Shown: piece by piece, positions 4,771 through 60,233 of the stretch
Layout: each line of letters opens with the position of its first letter
Numbering within the stretch: the stretch's first letter is position 1
DNA from: Turicibacter sanguinis
Lineage (GTDB): Bacteria > Bacillota_I > Bacilli_A > MOL361 > Turicibacteraceae
Length of the DNA stretch: 64,000 nucleotides
Direction: 5' to 3'
Assembly: GCF_013046825.1 (NCBI RefSeq)
Contig: NZ_CP053187.1
Location: forward strand, 1,477,501 to 1,541,500
The notes under the pieces: model-generated
What the model was told of the DNA's origin: nothing
Databases searched by the model: none
The model's input: the letters and a program-made list of their open reading frames with translations, nothing else
Program-made: the position numbers and the translations under genes

Positions 4771-5676
4771 ATGACTAAACAAAAGCGTCCATTCAAAGAA
4801 AATTTATTAGACGTAACAAACATTGAGCCTAAATATTTGGATATTTCATATGCGACATTAAGTGAAAGACAAAAGCTAGATATCTATTTACCAAGTGTTG
4901 ATGAGGGGCCGTTCCCCGTTATTGTTCATATTCATGGTGGAGCATTCAAAATGGGAAATAAGCGTGATGAACAATTAACGAGTATTTTATTAGGGCTTAA
5001 ACGAGGATATGCTATTGTATCAGTTAATTACCGATTAAGCCAAGAAGCAAAGTTTCCAGCAGCGGTCGAGGATGTAAAAGCAGCTATTCGTTTTATTAAA
5101 GCAAATGCCAAAAAGTATCAGTTGAATCCGAATAAAATTGCAGTATGGGGTGGTTCTGCAGGTGGACATTTATCAGCAATGGTTGGAGTAACTTCACATC
5201 TAAGTCTATTTGAACATCCACAATTAGGGAATATAGAGCAATCATCGGCTGTTCAAGCAGTTGTAGATTGGTTTGGACCGATTAACTTTTTAACGATGGA
5301 TGAGCAGTTTAAAGAACTTGAGGTTAATACTAAATTAGGTATCACTTGTTCTATTAATTCACCAGAATCTGAGTATATTGGAACGTTAATTACAGAAGTA
5401 CCTGACTTAGTTCAAAAAAGTAATCCTGAAACTTACATTGATGCTTCTAATCCACCATTCTTTATTCAACACGGAACAGCAGATGGGAATATTCCATATC
5501 TTCAATCGGTGTATTTCTCAAATAAATTAAAAGAAGTGATAGGCGAAAATAAGGTCTACTTTGAATTACTTGAGGGAGCAGGACATGGAGATGGGGTCTT
5601 CTCAGACAAACTGTATTTTACAGCTTCAGAAAATTTAGAAAAAGTATTTGTATTTTTAGATTCAGTTTTAAAATAA
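4771..5676 (+). CDS. Alpha/beta-hydrolase esterase
   Basis: A 301-residue alpha/beta-hydrolase of the BD-FAE/acetyl-esterase type. It shows the oxyanion motif HIHGGAF (53-59), nucleophile elbow GGSAGG with Ser129, Asp238 in GTADGNIP and His272 in GAGHGDG, a complete catalytic triad. No signal peptide is visible, so it is cytoplasmic. It starts 15 bases after the decarboxylase with GAGGGGG as ribosome site, so the two are cotranscribed. This suggests it frees phenolic acids (for example from galloyl, hydroxybenzoyl or feruloyl esters) for decarboxylation. Ester specificity is an inference from context. Confidence 0.82.
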   Translation: MTKQKRPFKENLLDVTNIEPKYLDISYATLSERQKLDIYLPSVDEGPFPVIVHIHGGAFKMGNKRDEQLTSILLGLKRGYAIVSVNYRLSQEAKFPAAVEDVKAAIRFIKANAKKYQLNPNKIAVWGGSAGGHLSAMVGVTSHLSLFEHPQLGNIEQSSAVQAVVDWFGPINFLTMDEQFKELEVNTKLGITCSINSPESEYIGTLITEVPDLVQKSNPETYIDASNPPFFIQHGTADGNIPYLQSVYFSNKLKEVIGENKVYFELLEGAGHGDGVFSDKLYFTASENLEKVFVFLDSVLK

Positions 5677-5728
5677 AGTAACAGATATCCTTAGGAAAAA
5701 GTCCTTGGGAAACTAAATAAAAATTATG

Positions 5729-5764
5729 AAAGCAGAATGTGTGAATTTACATTCTGCTTTTTGT
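5729..5764 (+). terminator. Terminator after esterase gene
   Basis: Stem AAAGCAGAATGT / ACATTCTGCTTT with an 8-base loop and a short T run closes the decarboxylase-esterase operon. Confidence 0.8.
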
Positions 5765-5822
5765 TGTAAAACGCTATCATAAAATGTAAAATATAGGAAG
5801 GAAATGAAAGGAGAGAGAAGTT

Positions 5823-6311
5823 ATGAGTAAAATTTTTGACGGTAAATTAAAAAGAGTAGGGGGCGTTCGACATTCTGAATACAGTGAGTATTTAGAAAGA
5901 AAAAAGCATGGTGATTTTGTCGTAAAAGGTGGTGTCTTCACAGATAGTGAGCGTGCCTTTTATTCAAAGCTAGAATTAGTAACAGAAAGATTTCCACTTC
6001 GACCATTAGTGAAAGTAGCATTAAAAGATATATTTGATATTAAAGACAGCTTTCTGAATCATAATCAAATTCATTTAGAAAGATTAAAAAATTATTACAT
6101 TGATTTCTTAGTTTGTGATGAAGAAACAATGATCCCATTATTAGCAATCTTTTTAGGCAAACATAATTTAGATGAAATGAAATTTATCGAGGGATTATTC
6201 GAAGAATTCGAGATTAATATCGCTCATGTCGAAGAAAAAGAAGAATACAATGTAATTGAATTAATTCAAATAATGGAGTTAAATATTGATATGAAAAGTT
6301 TAATCAAGTAG
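5823..6311 (+). CDS. Unknown 162-residue cytoplasmic protein
   Basis: I do not recognise this family. The protein is soluble, charged and acidic toward its C terminus (HVEEKEEYNVIELIQIMELN), with no membrane segment or signal peptide. It has a good ribosome site (AAAGGAGAGAGAAG) and lies 11 bases upstream of the flavoprotein gene, so the two are probably translated from one message. It may be a partner of that oxidoreductase, but nothing in its sequence names a reaction. Confidence 0.7.
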   Translation: MSKIFDGKLKRVGGVRHSEYSEYLERKKHGDFVVKGGVFTDSERAFYSKLELVTERFPLRPLVKVALKDIFDIKDSFLNHNQIHLERLKNYYIDFLVCDEETMIPLLAIFLGKHNLDEMKFIEGLFEEFEINIAHVEEKEEYNVIELIQIMELNIDMKSLIK

Positions 6312-49660: not shown

Positions 49661-50041
49661 ATGAAATTTTATATTTGTCCAACTTGTGGAAATGTCATTG
49701 AATTAATTGAAGATCATAAAGTTCCAGTAATGTGCTGCGGTAAAAAAATGGAAGAATTAGTACCTAACTCAACTGAAGCTGCTGTTGAAAAACACATGCC
49801 AGTTCCAACTGTTGAAAATGGGGTATTAAAAGTTTCTGTTGGTGAAGTAGAGCATCCAAGCATCGAAAAACACTGGATTCCATTCGTAGCTGTAAAAGCT
49901 TCGGATTTAGTAATGCGTCGTGAAATCAAAGCAACTGAAAAACCAGAAGCAATCTTCCCAATCGGAGATTTCAAAGGTGAAGTAGAAGTTTATGCTTGGT
50001 GTAACTTACACGGATTATGGAAAGCAACAATCACTTTATAA
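49661..50041 (+). CDS. dfx: Desulfoferrodoxin-type superoxide reductase
   Basis: A 126-residue 2Fe-type superoxide reductase. Centre I ligands Cys6, Cys9, Cys25 and Cys26 form the rubredoxin-like site. Centre II ligands His45, His65, His71, Cys114 and His117 are all present, along with the catalytic Glu-Lys pair (EKHMPVP). It reduces superoxide to peroxide without releasing oxygen, a mark of anaerobes. Ribosome site GGAGG, single-gene unit. Confidence 0.95.
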   Translation: MKFYICPTCGNVIELIEDHKVPVMCCGKKMEELVPNSTEAAVEKHMPVPTVENGVLKVSVGEVEHPSIEKHWIPFVAVKASDLVMRREIKATEKPEAIFPIGDFKGEVEVYAWCNLHGLWKATITL

Positions 50042-50056
50042 TAATCGCGTAAATGA

Positions 50057-50083
50057 AAGAGTCGGATAGTCCGGCTCTTTTTT
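50057..50083 (+). terminator. Terminator after superoxide reductase
   Basis: AAAGAGTCGGA / TCCGGCTCTTTTTT with a 3-base loop. Confidence 0.8.
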
Positions 50084-50170
50084 AGATTGAAAATTAGTAT
50101 AAATTCCTTGAAATGGATAATTATAATCAAGATAGATGATTTAAAGTTTAGATATTTTGAGGTGATGTGG

Positions 50171-50626
50171 ATGAAAATTGGAATGGCATGTGATCATGCA
50201 GGACATGATTTAAAAGAAGAAATTAAGAGATATTTAGAAAATGAAGGTCATGAAGTTGTAGATTTTGGAACAAATAGTCAGGAGGCGTGTGATTTACCTG
50301 ATCACGTTTATCCAGCAGCTTTAGCTGTAAGTCATGAAGAAGTAGAGCGCGGAATCTTTGTCGATGGTGTTGGCTATGGAAGTGCAATGATTGCAAATAA
50401 AGTACCGGGGGTGTATGCGGCTGTATGCCAAGACCCCTTTTGTGCGAGCTTGGCTCGTTCTCATTCCGATACAAACGTTTTATGCTTGGGTGGAAAAATT
50501 ATTGGTTCAGCAATTGCTCTCGAGATTGTCAAAACGTGGATGCATACGGATTATCTTTCAAGTGTTGAAAAATATGTTCAAAGGGTTGAGAAAGTTAAGA
50601 AGATTGATCAAATGCATAAAAAATAG
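50171..50626 (+). CDS. RpiB/LacAB-family isomerase-like protein
   Basis: A 151-residue protein of RpiB length. GMACDHAGHDLKEEIKRYLE at the start, NKVPGVYAAVCQDPFCASLARSHSDTNVL and LGGKIIGSAIA are clear family marks. In RpiB the catalytic Cys lies in ICGTGIGM, but here this motif reads VDGVGYGS with Asp65 in its place, so ribose-5-phosphate isomerase activity cannot be assumed. ATG 50171 is preceded by GAGGTG. It is a lone gene. Confidence 0.8.
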   Translation: MKIGMACDHAGHDLKEEIKRYLENEGHEVVDFGTNSQEACDLPDHVYPAALAVSHEEVERGIFVDGVGYGSAMIANKVPGVYAAVCQDPFCASLARSHSDTNVLCLGGKIIGSAIALEIVKTWMHTDYLSSVEKYVQRVEKVKKIDQMHKK

Positions 50627-52858: not shown

Positions 52859-52902
52859 AAAAAAAGGCTTTTCTTAGAAAATATCTAAGAGAAGCCTTTT
52901 TT
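52859..52902. terminator. Bidirectional terminator
   Basis: AAAAAGGCTTTTCTTAGA / TCTAAGAGAAGCCTTTTT. Confidence 0.88.
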
Positions 52903-53611
52903 ATTCATTTGAAACTTTTTGTCGATACTGTGCAGGAGTTAATCCTGTAAGTTTTTTAAATGTAGAACTATAGTAATTATGATTATTGAATCCGACTGCT
53001 AAGGCTACTTCTAAAATACTATATTGGTTATCTTTTAAATACTGTTTACTTTTTTCAATTCGTACACGATTCAAAAAATGTGAAAATGTCATGCCCGTCT
53101 CTGATTTGAAAATGGAACAAAAATAACTTTTATTAAGGTTTAAATACTGGCAAACCTCATCTAGTTTAATATCTTTTTCATAATATTTGTGAATAAAATA
53201 GATTCCTTCTTTAACAGAGGAATGAAATTGATGTTTTTCAAACAGGCGATGACGAACAATACTTTCAAATAATTTTCCGATTGATTTTAAACAGCAATGT
53301 GGTTTAAATGGAATATTGCTATTTATTAAATTTTCATCACTATGAAAGGGTCCTATTACGAATAATCCTTTTTGTTGTTTATATTGGTAAAGAGGAGAAA
53401 GAATGAAGTGAATTTTTTCACCTCGACAAATGTAAATTAATGATGAACTAGATGATTGATAGTCGTCAAAAAGATTAGAAGAATCTAATATCTTATTAAG
53501 ATTTGGTGTCATTGCATGATTCAAAATCATTTTTTTTTGTTCATTAAAAAAAGAGATTGGAATGGTTAAACAATGATAAAAATCAGATAACACTTGTTGG
53601 ATTTTATCCAT
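52901..53611 (-). CDS. AraC-family regulator divergent from the nitrogenase-like operon
   Basis: A 236-residue regulator. The N-terminal 130 residues are an unassigned sensing domain with GEKIHFILSPLY and GLFVIGPFH and a CysCys at FKPHCCLKSI. The C-terminal 100 residues are a double helix-turn-helix of AraC type (LNLNKSYFCSIFKSETGMTFSHFLNRVR, VGFNNHNYYSSTFKKLTGLTPAQYR). Start 53611 follows GGGGGAAATC. Sharing a 160-base intergenic region holding a Fur box, it probably activates the operon when its ligand is present and itself may be iron-controlled. Confidence 0.85.
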   Translation of the reverse strand: MDKIQQVLSDFYHCLTIPISFFNEQKKMILNHAMTPNLNKILDSSNLFDDYQSSSSSLIYICRGEKIHFILSPLYQYKQQKGLFVIGPFHSDENLINSNIPFKPHCCLKSIGKLFESIVRHRLFEKHQFHSSVKEGIYFIHKYYEKDIKLDEVCQYLNLNKSYFCSIFKSETGMTFSHFLNRVRIEKSKQYLKDNQYSILEVALAVGFNNHNYYSSTFKKLTGLTPAQYRQKVSNE

Positions 53612-53694
53612 ATGATTTCCCCCAGAATAGTTAGTTTTCAAAAACAAATTAATATAGTTACAAAAATTCTATATATTGTTCAAGCAAGTTTTAA

Positions 53695-53723
53695 TTGGCT
53701 ACATTATAATAACTATTGATAAT
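53695..53723 (+). promoter_or_regulatory. Likely promoter of nitrogenase-like operon
   Basis: TTGGCT and GATAAT with a 17-base spacer. The -10 lies inside the Fur box, so bound Fur would exclude RNA polymerase. A TATAAT at 53705-53710 is an alternative without a good -35. Confidence 0.5.
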
Positions 53724-53731
53724 GATTATCA
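53717..53731. promoter_or_regulatory. Fur box
   Basis: TGATAATGATTATCA is an exact match to the 7-1-7 Fur consensus TGATAATNATTATCA of Bacillus, within a longer 19-base palindrome (ATTGATAATGATTATCAAT). It lies 41 bases before the NifH-like start. Confidence 0.88.
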
Positions 53732-54546: not shown

Positions 54547-55497
54547 ATGAAATTTAAACATTTATTATCAATGATCTTAGTATCAACAACATTATTAGTC
54601 GGATGTCAATCATCAAAAGGAACAGAAGTAGAAGAGCAAATACCAGTTGTGGATGAGACATCATCAAGTACAAAACAAGAGGAAGAAACAACAGATGTTG
54701 AAAAAGAAGTAGAAGAAATCAAAGTTGTTGCAGCAACTGTATCGGCAACACAAGTGTTAGCAGAATTAAATGCAGAAGTTTTAGGAGTACCAGCAACATC
54801 ACAAACATTACCTGATGGATATCAAGATTTACCGCAAGTTGGACAAGCAATGAATCCAGACTTAGAAATTGTTGCATCATTAAACCCTGATTTATTTATC
54901 ATGGATGCTAGCTTTAAATCAAGTGTAGAGGAAAGTTTAACTGAGTATGGATTGAATACCTTCTTCTTTGAAACAGGAACATACACTGCGTTTTTAAATA
55001 GTATTAAAGAATTGGGGAATGCGATTAATCGTCAAGATGAAGCAACAACTTTATTGAATCAATTAAAACAAGCTGAGGAAGTTGCTTTAGCAAATAAAAC
55101 AGAACAAGCCCCAACAGTTGCGATCATCTTTGGTGCTGGTGACAACTTCATGTTAGCAACAGAAAGTTCTTATTTAGGAGACCTTGCAAAAACATTAGGT
55201 GCGATTAATATTGCATCAGAGATTGATACAAACATTGAATCAGCATATATCCAATTCAGTTTAGAACAAATTTTAGCACAAAATCCTGATTATGTTTTAC
55301 GCTTTGCCCACGGAAATATCGAAGAAACATCTAAAATGTTCGATGAAGCATTTGATAAAAATGAAGCTTATCAACAATTAGATGCGGTTGCAGATGGGAA
55401 AGTTTATGATTTAGATTCAACTATCTTCAATGTTTCAGCAAATTTAAAAGTAACAGAAGCAATCACAAAACTTGGAGAAATCTTATACGGTAACTAA
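54547..55497 (+). CDS. ABC transporter substrate-binding lipoprotein (iron-siderophore / heme / cobalamin class)
   Basis: A 316-residue lipoprotein: signal peptide with lipobox LLVGC (Cys20), a Ser/Glu/Thr-rich linker to about residue 58, then a BtuF/FepB-type helical-backbone fold (VVAATVSATQVLAELNAEVLGVPATS, IVASLNPDLFIMDASF, NPDYVLRFAHGN). The family binds metal chelates such as siderophores, heme or vitamin B12. The atypical spots where other members show Trp/Tyr ligand contacts do not tell which. It lies 25 bases after the NifH-like gene. Confidence 0.9.
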   Translation: MKFKHLLSMILVSTTLLVGCQSSKGTEVEEQIPVVDETSSSTKQEEETTDVEKEVEEIKVVAATVSATQVLAELNAEVLGVPATSQTLPDGYQDLPQVGQAMNPDLEIVASLNPDLFIMDASFKSSVEESLTEYGLNTFFFETGTYTAFLNSIKELGNAINRQDEATTLLNQLKQAEEVALANKTEQAPTVAIIFGAGDNFMLATESSYLGDLAKTLGAINIASEIDTNIESAYIQFSLEQILAQNPDYVLRFAHGNIEETSKMFDEAFDKNEAYQQLDAVADGKVYDLDSTIFNVSANLKVTEAITKLGEILYGN

Positions 55498-55499
55498 AA

Positions 55500-56480
55500 A
55501 TGAGAATAGATAAAAAATATATCATTATTATCTTATCTTTCATCACTTTACTGAGTTTGATTTTTGTCTTTTCAACGGTGGGGAGTGTTAATTTAAGTTT
55601 AGGTGAAATTTTAAGTGCCTTAAAAAATAACGATAACAAGGTTGTGACAACCATTGTTTATAAAATGCGATTACCACGAAATATTTTAGCGACATTAGTC
55701 GGAGCAAATTTAGCTGTTTCAGGAATTTTACTCCAATCAGTGATGAAAAATCCACTTGCAGACCCAGGAATTACAGGGGTTTCAAGTGGAGCTAGTGTCG
55801 CAGCAATTGTCATTTTATTAACAGCCCCACAATTAGCAAGTATCTTACCTGTTGCTGCCTTTATTGGAGGATGTGTTGCTTGTGCATTAGTTTTTATGAT
55901 GGCATGGAAAAATGGATTAAAGCCTGAACGTGTTGTTTTAGCAGGGGTTGCTGTTAATACGATCTTAGGAGGCTTTATCTCATTATTATCCACACTATAT
56001 AGTGATAAAATTCAAAGTGCGATTTTATGGCTAAATGGGAGTCTTGCAACAAAAACATGGCAAGATGTTCACATGTTAGTTTGGTATTCCGTCATTGGAC
56101 TAATCTTGTCTTTATTTTTAATTCGAAGTGCAAATGTTTTACAACTTGGAGAAGAATCTGCGACAAATTTGGGATTCAATGTGAATCGAACGCGACTTAT
56201 TATTTCACTAGTTGCTGTTTTCTTAGCAGCTACCTCGACTGCTGTTGTTGGAATTATTAGTTTTGTCGGATTAATTGTTCCACATATTTCAAGAATGTTA
56301 ATGGGAAGTGATCATAAATATACGATTCCATTTAGTATGGTCCTTGGCGGAATTGTACTTTTAATTGCAGATACACTTGCAAGAACAGTAGGTGGTTCAA
56401 TTGAAATTCCAGTAGGGGTAATTATGTCGATTGTAGGCGGTCCATTCTTTTTATATTTATTAAGAAAAAGGGGGAACTGA
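55500..56480 (+). CDS. FecCD/BtuC-type ABC permease
   Basis: A 326-residue permease with ten helices. RLPRNILATLVGANLAVSG, GVSSGASVAAI and the ATPase-contacting LGFNVNRTR and GIISFVGLIVPHISR segments are typical. It forms a homodimeric channel for chelated iron, heme or cobalamin. It begins two bases after the binding-protein gene, and the only ribosome complement (GGAGA) is about 20 bases upstream, so translation may be coupled. Confidence 0.92.
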   Translation: MRIDKKYIIIILSFITLLSLIFVFSTVGSVNLSLGEILSALKNNDNKVVTTIVYKMRLPRNILATLVGANLAVSGILLQSVMKNPLADPGITGVSSGASVAAIVILLTAPQLASILPVAAFIGGCVACALVFMMAWKNGLKPERVVLAGVAVNTILGGFISLLSTLYSDKIQSAILWLNGSLATKTWQDVHMLVWYSVIGLILSLFLIRSANVLQLGEESATNLGFNVNRTRLIISLVAVFLAATSTAVVGIISFVGLIVPHISRMLMGSDHKYTIPFSMVLGGIVLLIADTLARTVGGSIEIPVGVIMSIVGGPFFLYLLRKRGN

Positions 56481-56483
56481 TGT

Positions 56484-57269
56484 ATGATTGAAGCAAAGAA
56501 CTTAACAGCTGGCTATGAGGATAAAATCATTATTAAAGATTTGAACTTAAAAATTGAAAAAGGACAAGTGGTCTCGATTATTGGTCCAAATGGGTGTGGA
56601 AAGTCAACGTTACTTAAAACATTATCACGTATGATTAAACCAATGGGAGGGGCTGTTTTACTGGAAAATAACGAGCTGTCCAAACTTAAAAATAAATTTA
56701 TTTCTCAAAAAATATGTTTGTTATCACAACATAATTTAGCACCGACTGATTTAACCGTTGAGCAACTTGTTTATTTTGGTCGCTTACCACATAAGAAATG
56801 GTTTGAATGTAAGACGACAGAAGATCAAGAATTAGTAGAATGGGCAATTGAACAAACAGGGCTAGCACACTATAAACATAAACCTATTGGGTCCTTATCT
56901 GGTGGTGAACGACAAAGGGCCTATATTGCACAGGCCCTTTGTCAAACACCTGATGTTTTACTGCTCGATGAACCAACGACTTATCTTGATATTTCACACC
57001 AACTTGAGCTTATGGAACTTGTGCGTGAAATCAATGAGAAATTCAAGATAACCATTGTGATGGTATTACATGAACTTAACCAAGCTAGCCGATATAGTGA
57101 TCGATTAGTGATTATGAAACAAGGAAGAATCGTATCAGATGGAACACCGGTAGAAACCATTAATCAAGAGATGATTAAGCATGTTTATCAAATTGAATGT
57201 GATATTGATAACGATCCTATTTCAAATAAACCGCGTATTCATCCGATTCAAACGATTAAGACCGCTTAA
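56484..57269 (+). CDS. FepC/BtuD-type ABC ATPase
   Basis: A 261-residue ATPase: Walker A GPNGCGKST near residue 33, signature LSGGERQRAYIAQAL, Walker B DVLLLDEPTTYLDISHQLELM and the switch His in MVLHELNQA. It powers the FecCD-type permease. Three bases separate it from the permease gene and 12 from the NifD-like gene, so importer and enzyme genes are interleaved in one operon. Confidence 0.93.
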   Translation: MIEAKNLTAGYEDKIIIKDLNLKIEKGQVVSIIGPNGCGKSTLLKTLSRMIKPMGGAVLLENNELSKLKNKFISQKICLLSQHNLAPTDLTVEQLVYFGRLPHKKWFECKTTEDQELVEWAIEQTGLAHYKHKPIGSLSGGERQRAYIAQALCQTPDVLLLDEPTTYLDISHQLELMELVREINEKFKITIVMVLHELNQASRYSDRLVIMKQGRIVSDGTPVETINQEMIKHVYQIECDIDNDPISNKPRIHPIQTIKTA

Positions 57270-57281
57270 AGGAGGATCGTT

Positions 57282-58571
57282 ATGTATACATTAGAGAGTT
57301 TAAATCGTCTGAGTGAAATTAAGACGGACCAAGATATTAAAAGTTTATCACATGCTATTTTCCCAGGAACACATTGCCCTTTATTTGGCGTTGCCTTAAC
57401 GGCATCTTATGTTAAAAATATGACAATGATTGTCATTGGAACAAGTGAATGTACGTACTATACGAAAAACTTTGCTTATCATCGTCAAAAAGGAAAAGAT
57501 AGTGTTTATTCATTAGTGCTTGATGATAAAGAAGTCGTATTTGGTGCCGTGGCACAGGTTGAGAGGGCAGTAAAAGAGATTATTGAAATAGAACATCCTG
57601 ATGCAGTCATGCTCGTTACGACATGTGTTCCAGAGTTAATAGGGGAGGATTATTCATCTATTCCTTATACACTTGAGGAAGAGGTAGGGATTCCGATATT
57701 TGTTGTGAACACTGAACATTTTAAATGTAATTCACATATTCCTGGTATGTCACGAGCCTTAAAGTCTTTAAGTCATGCGATGGAAAAAGTTGAGGTACAA
57801 GAAGGAGTTAATATTATTGGACATCGTCAGGATAAGGTAGAGGAAACAGAACTTGTACAGTTATTAAAAAAATATGATGTTCAAATCCAAACCGTTATCC
57901 CTTCAAGTTGTACAATAGCTGAAATAAAAAAGGCTCCAACTGCTAAGTTAAACATTGTTACAGATATGATTGGATTAGATTTAGCGAAAGAAATGAAGCG
58001 AAAATTTAATATTGAGTATCTATACTTTGATAAGCATTTAAATGTAGAGACTATTTCTAAAAATTATGAAGAGTTATCGAAAATACTTGAAATTGATTTT
58101 TCACGAGATTTAAAACAAGTTAAGGCACGTTACGAACAGTTAGCCATGAAATGTTATTCACTATTAAAAGGGAAAAAATTAATTTATGGAAATACGCCAA
58201 TGATGGCACTTGAAATGGTCGATTTCTTAAGTGATTTAGGCTTAGAACCCGTCTTTGTTCAATTACGAGAATTATATGAGCAAGATTCACCTTATAAGGA
58301 GAGTTTATTAGACAAAGGCTATAATCCTTATATTAGTCGTATTGCAAATATTGCGCCATTACGAGAGTTATACGATACGATTGGGGCAGATTTGTATGTA
58401 GGTCATGAAAGTCCAATGTTATTAAAACAAAAAGGAATGATGCAAATGACCTTTGATGCTCACGCTCAAAAAATCGGTTATGAGCTCCCAATTGGTGTCA
58501 TGCAAGATATGATTAAGTTAATGACTGAAGATTCTAAACCAATGGGAGGTGGCAAACATGCAGCTATGTAA
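57282..58571 (+). CDS. NifD/BchN-like nitrogenase-superfamily subunit
   Basis: A 429-residue protein of the nitrogenase component 1 family. Three Cys sit at the places of the NifD cluster ligands: Cys32 in GTHCPLFG, Cys57 in TSECTYY and Cys115 in TTCVPELIGED. Their spacing (25 and 58) is close to BchN of protochlorophyllide reductase. Nothing corresponds to the FeMo-cofactor Cys and His ligands of NifD. The C terminus has DLYVGHES and PMGGGKHAAM. It should form a heterodimer with the next gene product and reduce a substrate with electrons from the NifH-like protein. Its start follows AAGGAGGA. Confidence 0.88.
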   Translation: MYTLESLNRLSEIKTDQDIKSLSHAIFPGTHCPLFGVALTASYVKNMTMIVIGTSECTYYTKNFAYHRQKGKDSVYSLVLDDKEVVFGAVAQVERAVKEIIEIEHPDAVMLVTTCVPELIGEDYSSIPYTLEEEVGIPIFVVNTEHFKCNSHIPGMSRALKSLSHAMEKVEVQEGVNIIGHRQDKVEETELVQLLKKYDVQIQTVIPSSCTIAEIKKAPTAKLNIVTDMIGLDLAKEMKRKFNIEYLYFDKHLNVETISKNYEELSKILEIDFSRDLKQVKARYEQLAMKCYSLLKGKKLIYGNTPMMALEMVDFLSDLGLEPVFVQLRELYEQDSPYKESLLDKGYNPYISRIANIAPLRELYDTIGADLYVGHESPMLLKQKGMMQMTFDAHAQKIGYELPIGVMQDMIKLMTEDSKPMGGGKHAAM

Positions 58572-59763
58572 ATATTATCCGGTTGCAAATGATCGGATGG
58601 GGTCGATTTGGACACTTTGTTCGATTAAAGATACCTGTATCATTGAGTTTGGCCCTGCAGGAACAACTCACTATGCAGTTGAGGGAATTGGAAGTTTGAA
58701 TGCAGGGGAAGGTTCCCGCATTTATTCAACCCATATGGATCAAAGTGATGTAACGTTTGGAAAGTATGATCGATTAGAAAAAGCTATTTTAGAGGTTGAT
58801 GAGAATATTAAACCTCGATACATTTTTGTCATGGCTTCTTCGATTTCCTCAATTATTGGTGCGGATATTGAGAGTGTGTGTAGCGATTTACAAAGTCAAG
58901 TTCAGTCTAAACTTATTGCCATCACGACTGGAGGACTTAAGCATCAATATCATATTGGAGTTGAACAAACATTAGAATTACTCGTGAAGAAGTTAGTTGG
59001 TGATTATCCTCGTGATGTTAATAAATATAATATTTTAGGCTGTACGATTGATAAATATAATTATGCTTCTGATGTTGAAGAAATGAAACGTATGATGAAG
59101 CTCTTCTTTAACAAGGAAGTTCAAACAGTTTTCACATGTGAGACAACTGTTGAAGAAATTGAACAGGCTAGTCGTGCGTCTTTAAATATTGTTATGCGCA
59201 AAGAAGCCTTGAAAGCTGCTAAGTGGATGAAGAAAACTTACGGAATTCCGTATATTTATCACCATGTATATGGCCTTCAAAATACGATTGATTTTATTGA
59301 AGCAGTTAATAAAATCGATGGGTATGAAGTGAATCGAGAGTATCTAAATGCAGAAGTTGAAGCAGTAAAAAAGCATTTGTTTAGTTTAAAACGTAAATTT
59401 TTATTTTATAAAGAAACAAAGGAATGCGCGATTTTTGGTGACTATGATACGGTGCTAGGATTTGACGCTATTTTAAAAGAGCTAGGACTTGCTACTGATC
59501 GTTTAGAAGTATTGTACCAAACGGAAGTAGAAGCAGATTGGATATCCGGTCGCCCTGAATTAGAAAGAATAAAATATTTAAAATCAAAAGAACTATTCAT
59601 GATTTGTGGAGATGGTCCAAGCTTAGAGATGGAACATCAAGCTAAATTAGAGTTACAGGTTAGTAACCCTAATTTAAATCAAGTTTTGATTTATCCATAT
59701 ACGCCCTATATGGGATTTAGAGGGATGCTTTTCGTTATTGAAAAAATATTAAATATCAAATAG
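58558..59763 (+). CDS. NifK/BchB-like nitrogenase-superfamily subunit
   Basis: About 401 residues, starting MQLCKYYPVANDRMGS. Only the first family cysteine is present (Cys4). The second reads Thr in GPAGTTHYA and the third Ser/Ile in MASSISSIIGADIE. Extra Cys21 and Cys27 lie close by. Three D-subunit Cys plus one ligand from this chain would hold a [4Fe-4S] centre as in BchNB. ATG 58558 lies eight bases after GGGAGG and 14 bases inside the preceding gene, so translation is coupled. Confidence 0.87.
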   Translation: MQLCKYYPVANDRMGSIWTLCSIKDTCIIEFGPAGTTHYAVEGIGSLNAGEGSRIYSTHMDQSDVTFGKYDRLEKAILEVDENIKPRYIFVMASSISSIIGADIESVCSDLQSQVQSKLIAITTGGLKHQYHIGVEQTLELLVKKLVGDYPRDVNKYNILGCTIDKYNYASDVEEMKRMMKLFFNKEVQTVFTCETTVEEIEQASRASLNIVMRKEALKAAKWMKKTYGIPYIYHHVYGLQNTIDFIEAVNKIDGYEVNREYLNAEVEAVKKHLFSLKRKFLFYKETKECAIFGDYDTVLGFDAILKELGLATDRLEVLYQTEVEADWISGRPELERIKYLKSKELFMICGDGPSLEMEHQAKLELQVSNPNLNQVLIYPYTPYMGFRGMLFVIEKILNIK

Positions 59764-59777
59764 TAAGGATGTAAGAA

Positions 59778-60233
59778 ATGGAAACATTATTAAATCAGAA
59801 AAGTTTAATGATTAGTTCATTAAATGAAAATAAAATGCCTGAAATTAGTTATGCACCTTTTATGATGAAAGATCAAAAAATCTATATTTATATTAGTAAG
59901 GCTGCTGCACATTATCATAATTTAGTGCAAAATCCACAGTGTTCAGTCATGCTAATTGAAGATGAAGCAGCTTGTAAAACGGTCTTTGCAAGAGAACGCG
60001 TTTCTTTTGAATGTATAGCTTCAAAAGTTGAGTCAAGCAAGGAGTTATTAGAATTATTTGGTGGACGACAAGGAGCTCAAATGATGATGGTTTTAAAAAC
60101 ATTAGACTTTGATTTCTTTGAGTTAGTCCCACTTAAAGGTCGTCTTGTTAAAGGATTTGGACAGGCGTTTAACATTTCTTTAAACAATAGTGAGTTTCAA
60201 TTAACACAAGTCACATCAATAGGGCATAAATAA
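59778..60233 (+). CDS. HugZ/HutZ-like pyridoxamine-oxidase-fold protein
   Basis: A 151-residue split-barrel protein. The C-terminal pattern LKGRLVKGFGQAFNIS recalls the VGGFG motif of heme-binding HugZ and HutZ, which degrade or store heme. The end TSIGHK has a His that could act as axial ligand, as in HugZ. CKTVFARERVSFEC resembles the same family. It is shorter than HugZ (about 250). Cotranscribed 15 bases after the NifK-like gene. Alternatively an FMN-binding pyridoxamine-oxidase relative that helps the reductase. Confidence 0.75.
   Translation: METLLNQKSLMISSLNENKMPEISYAPFMMKDQKIYIYISKAAAHYHNLVQNPQCSVMLIEDEAACKTVFARERVSFECIASKVESSKELLELFGGRQGAQMMMVLKTLDFDFFELVPLKGRLVKGFGQAFNISLNNSEFQLTQVTSIGHK

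Follow-up and report, generated by a model that had tools for sequence, protein, structure and literature searches.

A pair of nitrogenase-like subunits encoded directly behind the genes of an iron-complex ABC transporter raises the question of what substrate such an enzyme would meet in Turicibacter sanguinis. The locus lies in a stretch of 64,000 nucleotides (contig NZ_CP053187.1, positions 1,477,501 to 1,541,500), which we call the window. An earlier note on this DNA had placed the D-like gene at 57282-58571 and the K-like gene from an ATG at 58558 to 59763, and both assignments are right. The operon follows a divergent AraC-family gene and runs from a Fur box through NifH, a heme-type substrate-binding protein (SBP), permease, ATPase, D and K to a HugZ-like gene, as follows:

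52901..53647, minus strand: AraC-family regulator, divergent (PF12833, 7.7e-22), adjoining the operon in most loci of clade A, described below
53717..53731: exact 7-1-7 Fur box TGATAATGATTATCA, about 40 bp upstream of the NifH-like start codon
53772..54521, plus strand: NifH-like iron protein (PF00142, 1.8e-99), with the P-loop and both [4Fe-4S] cysteine motifs
54547..55497, plus strand: IsdE-like heme substrate-binding lipoprotein, the SBP (TIGR03659, 2.9e-76; 256.5 bits, cut-off 298.65)
55500..56480, plus strand: FecCD-family permease (PF01032, 1.3e-96)
56484..57269, plus strand: ABC ATPase of iron-complex/heme type (PF00005, 2.9e-35; best models include FecE and heme ABC ATPase)
57282..58571, plus strand: D-like subunit, 429 aa (PF00148, 9.5e-59; AF2 pLDDT 86)
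58558..59763, plus strand: K-like subunit, 401 aa, ATG at 58558 (PF00148, 6.3e-66; AF2 pLDDT 87)
59778..60233, plus strand: HugZ/HutZ-like heme protein (TIGR04109, 1.4e-33, and TIGR04110, 1.3e-32, both under cut-off), with a C-terminal GFGQAF...GH motif

Profile and fold comparisons place the three nitrogenase-like proteins within the superfamily. Of the NCBIfam models, CfbC scores best for the NifH-like protein (358 bits, cut-off 402), followed by NifH (348) and BchL (217, cut-off 345), and NifE is the best profile match for both the D-like and the K-like chain. Both folds are predicted with confidence; the K-like one reaches TM values of up to 0.84/0.80 against BchB chains and 0.82/0.74 against NifN, and the D-like fold gives query-normalised values of approximately 0.61-0.78 against nitrogenase-family chains. 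Farther upstream in the window (49661-50626) lie desulfoferrodoxin-like and RpiB/LacAB-like genes, named from sequence alone, in the same order as in a related locus, L058, from a genome of the same genus.

In a phylogenetic tree the D and K chains form two families (SH-aLRT 98 and 99), each split into clades A and B; NifDKEN, BchNB and BchYZ were each represented by one reference, and the tree is not reliable in its deep branching between families. Clade A, which includes the window, has the conserved order NifH-SBP-permease-ATPase-D-K. The typical order in clade B is SBP-permease-permease-ATPase-NifH-D-K, with the transporter sometimes incomplete or elsewhere; its binding proteins are FepB/FecB-like, one locus carries a TonB siderophore receptor, and that of Sporomusa carries an enterochelin-esterase-like gene. 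In Sporomusa termitida the cassette (L005) is carried by a plasmid, pSPTER, with two TonB receptors and transposase genes close by. The K-like gene of Paraclostridium benzoelyticum (L008, 4838-6060) falls into two separate open frames, which reflects either a broken gene or an assembly error. Among five genomes of the Turicibacter genus, DK, SBP and HugZ occur together in two and are jointly absent from the rest, save for a distant SBP homologue (25% identity) in one. A search of about 390 genomes of the class and about 390 of the phylum gave close homologues in a single further genome, which belongs to the same genus. Carriage as recent phage or plasmid cargo is unsupported, the best plasmid relatives having at most 28% identity and the single match in a phage collection 25.5%. 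This match is a NifDK-like stretch (5398-6009) of an 8.5-kb fecal record, MT836848.1, which is possibly a bacterial contig.

The cluster ligands of the D-like chain are clear. Aligned with annotated NifD, NifE, NifK, NifN, BchN and BchB, its Cys32, Cys57 and Cys115, identified in the earlier note with spacings of 25 and 58, occupy exactly the columns in which NifD, NifE and BchN have their three P-cluster cysteines. In a set of 33 sequences (this genus, the Sporomusa plasmid and 30 genome contigs) they are kept in 32/32, 33/33 and 33/33 of the homologues that cover them, and because they are invariant at identities as low as 25%, chance is excluded as the source of the pattern. Two further cysteines, Cys149 and Cys210, are invariant in clade A, and Cys149 is also present in 14 of 21 clade B chains; by alignment it would lie in the loop whose NifD counterpart faces the cofactor, making it a candidate substrate contact.

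The K-like chain has Asn11, Thr36 and Ser95 in its ligand columns and contributes no ligand cysteine, and the ligand pattern read from the alignment is 3 + 0 cysteines, not the 3 + 1 proposed earlier. That proposal correctly had Thr in the second column (GPAGT36THY) and Ser, at position 95, in the third, but its statement that Cys4 remains fails, since the first column is Asn11, itself Ser in 28/31 sequences. Cys4 is seven residues upstream of Asn11, outside the ligand columns, and its position holds Cys in 3 of 31 homologues, Tyr in 16, His in 11 and Thr in one. Cys21 and Cys27, conserved in 3/31 and 9/31, fare similarly, and conservation rules out all three as a family-wide ligand.

What, then, would complete the cluster? 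In BchNB it is held by three BchN cysteines and Asp36 of BchB (PMC12518044). The Asp36 column corresponds to Thr36 here. Threonine fills it in each of the 11 K-chains of clade A, and histidine in each of the 20 of clade B. Two residues past it, His38 is invariant in clade A; three residues ahead of it, Cys33 is invariant in clade B. Threonine at position 36 is a poor Fe ligand, and the fourth ligand in clade A is perhaps the invariant His38, water or the substrate; the site may be open to either of the latter. Thr36 goes with the heme-type transporter of clade A and His36 with the siderophore-type transporter of clade B, although this is a single split on the tree and hence a correlation of one event. 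On present alignments the ligand set is three cysteines and one non-cysteine ligand, or an open site, which is a layout like that of protochlorophyllide reductase and not membership in that family.

Comparison with characterized members of the superfamily narrows the possible chemistry. NifDK has six P-cluster cysteines, three per chain; the K-like chain has none, its three ligand columns all lacking cysteine in the alignment. Neither chain retains the FeMo-cofactor ligands Cys275 and His442 of NifD: D has Asp/Thr and K has Arg/Leu at these positions, which bears out by alignment the earlier claim that they are missing. No TIGR01290 match for NifB was found in the genome, and the complete genome holds just two PF00148 genes, the D-like and the K-like, which leaves none for NifEN. 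Dinitrogen fixation is rejected on the K-chain cysteines, the cofactor ligands and NifB. Given the asymmetric ligand set and the missing FeMo-cofactor site, the simple cluster put forward in the earlier note is the natural reading; the organic substrate put forward with it, here a metal-organic one, fits a heme-import operon.

The likeness to protochlorophyllide reductase (DPOR, BchNB) holds for the fold, the three cysteines on one chain, the non-cysteine fourth ligand and the lack of both P-cluster and FeMoco; it does not extend to Asp36, which is replaced by Thr36. The C-terminal extension of BchB is also missing (401 versus 514 aa), the iron protein is CfbC/NifH-like and not of BchL type, and no photosynthesis genes adjoin the locus. 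The column of the BchB proton donor Asp274 reads Ser in the K-like chain, in a region where the alignment is weak. The enzyme is not a protochlorophyllide reductase, because it carries another residue in place of Asp36, its iron protein falls well short of the BchL cut-off and the genes stand beside heme import; the gene context and the loss of Asp36 likewise reject protochlorophyllide or chlorophyll chemistry. With CfbCD, an ATP-driven tetrapyrrole reductase, the system shares the top model for its NifH-like protein, CfbC. However, CfbD has no NifK partner, and the CfbD model, with a cut-off of 268, gives no more than 29.5 bits for the D-like chain and 46.3 for the K-like chain.

The transporter points to heme. 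The SBP aligns with IsdE of Staphylococcus aureus (2q8p, 8.5e-43). IsdE has a Met and a His, 151 residues apart, as its axial heme ligands, and Met102 and His255 of the SBP fall on this pair. In clade A these columns hold His in 12/12 and Met in 9/12 proteins; the six clade B proteins tested have neither. The HugZ/HutZ-like protein is below both model cut-offs (116 vs 240 and 113 vs 225 bits), with a match of near full length, and matches HutZ (3tgv) at 1.5e-22. A HugZ-like gene lies downstream in 7/12 clade A loci (the window, L004/L058, L007, L008, L011, L013 and L015) and was not found there in L009, L010, L012, L014 and L016. In L058 a second HugZ-like gene (5604-6086) precedes the cassette by about 3.4 kb.

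In Vibrio cholerae HutZ is paired with the anaerobic heme degrader HutW (PMC12670364). The HutWXZ/ChuW systems resemble the present operon as heme import operons with a HutZ-like protein, in which heme iron is used without oxygen, but their catalyst is a radical SAM methyltransferase. No HutW-type radical SAM enzyme scores over the cut-off in this genome (best 223.7 bits vs 400), and we take the matches under it to be HemN/HemW-type proteins; such matches also occur in all 14 control genomes. The same genome contains a PF01126 heme oxygenase (L071, contig 1, 1821300-1825400; gene at 2108-2743), directly after two exact Fur boxes. This oxygenase is an oxygen-dependent heme route, and the nitrogenase-like enzyme could be its equivalent for anaerobic conditions.

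The box ahead of the NifH-like gene is one of seven exact 7-1-7 sites in the 3.0-Mb genome, against one for the reversed control pattern. The others lie before or beside genes for a FecCD permease, rubrerythrin, the PF01126 heme oxygenase and ABC/DUF454 proteins, neighbours that would fit a Fur regulon, and the genome encodes three Fur-family proteins. Most other clade A loci have a Fur box with 0-3 mismatches between -52 and -63 relative to the NifH start; in L012 it is farther away, at -125, and in L014 none was found near that start. Import together with Fur control points to acquisition of iron, not to defence. This makes it very improbable that DK serves heme detoxification or porphyrin processing, turning heme or a porphyrin into a less toxic product with iron supply secondary, even though the same gene content, the HugZ-like partner and the presence of a separate heme oxygenase agree with that role.

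The core 3 + 0 cysteine pattern is not new, as Dos Santos et al. (2012) described transporter-linked pairs of adjacent NifE/NifN-like genes, of unknown function, in which one chain has three cysteines and its partner has none, and they raised a non-cysteine ligand as in DPOR (PMC3464626). Compared by description, their pairs from Clostridium botulinum and Alkaliphilus oremlandii share with ours NifH, the ABC ATPase, the 3 + 0 cysteines and the absence of FeMoco ligands. In those pairs NifH and the ATPase are directly upstream, as in clade B; the window clade instead has an IsdE-type importer between NifH and DK and adds HugZ and the Fur box, and heme is not mentioned in that paper. We found no account of the heme-linked clade, its Fur box, its HugZ partner or the Thr/His split in the literature searched, which left subscription papers outside, so that earlier notice is possible; nor did that literature link nitrogenase-like proteins to heme. 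The same authors proposed a coupling of metal transport to cofactor assembly (PMC3464626), and DK could correspondingly be a scaffold or insertase, like NifEN, that couples imported iron or heme to the assembly of a metallocluster. NifE as the top profile for both chains agrees with this role. We nevertheless consider it improbable: the genome has no other nif genes, with just two PF00148 genes and no NifB, the operon has no client enzyme, and the cofactor Cys275 is missing.

Taken together, the most probable view, to which we give about an even chance, is that Fur controls an operon for the acquisition of iron from heme and that a two-component reductase of nitrogenase-like type stands there in place of a heme-degrading enzyme. 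The parts of this view that can be read at sequence level are the importer type, the Fur box, the intact NifH-like protein, the three D and zero K cluster cysteines and the lack of a FeMo-cofactor site. Under iron starvation, heme would be imported; the NifH-like dimer would hydrolyse ATP and pass single electrons to a [4Fe-4S] cluster on Cys32, Cys57 and Cys115 of D, whose fourth site, non-cysteine or open, would lie near Thr36 and His38 of K. DK would then reduce bound heme, at the ring or a meso position, so that its iron could be removed, and the HugZ-like protein would bind heme or the product. Of these steps, the reduction of heme as the reaction catalysed is the one we are least sure of. 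We advance only tentatively, at somewhat under an even chance, that an enzyme of the nitrogenase family reduces or opens heme to gain its iron, by an oxygen-independent route distinct from the radical SAM anaerobilin synthases and the HmuS de-chelatase, and that its [4Fe-4S] cluster has an open or non-cysteine fourth site that may contact the substrate directly.

Several observations count for the heme-reductase reading: the conserved clade A order, HugZ in 7/12 loci, the IsdE-type heme ligands, the exact Fur box, the joint occurrence of DK, SBP and HugZ in the genus and the invariant D cysteines. It also draws on the tetrapyrrole chemistry of the simple-cluster relative BchNB (PMC12518044) and the related CfbCD (PMC7242693), and on the HutZ-HutW pairing of V. 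cholerae, HutW being missing here. Against it count the five clade A loci without HugZ and the PF01126 heme oxygenase in the genome. The main counter-argument is clade B, in which the same HDK core accompanies a siderophore-type SBP without heme ligands, a TonB siderophore receptor and, in Sporomusa, an enterochelin-esterase-like gene; the enzyme class is for this reason not tied to tetrapyrroles, which suggests iron chelates more generally.

One rival view is a low-potential ferric-chelate reductase, with DK receiving its charge from NifH and ATP. In clade A it would reduce imported heme and in clade B imported ferric siderophores, and iron would be released from these Fe(III) complexes while no organic ring is reduced. 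One activity would cover both clades, in keeping with the FepB/FecB-like proteins of clade B, their TonB siderophore receptor and esterase-like neighbours, and iron control. We still regard it as rather unlikely, because reducing heme iron is not enough to release it, spending ATP on the reduction of ferric siderophores is costly, and the 3 + 1 relatives reduce carbon-carbon bonds.

The operon suggests, without proving it, an ATP-driven reductase for reaching heme iron without oxygen, and how anaerobic gut Firmicutes obtain this iron is only partly known. A heme-directed relative of nitrogenase, if true, would extend the superfamily from tetrapyrrole building to tetrapyrrole consumption. Furthermore, the Thr-versus-His switch at the Asp36 position, which tracks transporter type, provides a defined test residue for the choice of cluster and substrate in nitrogenase-like enzymes.
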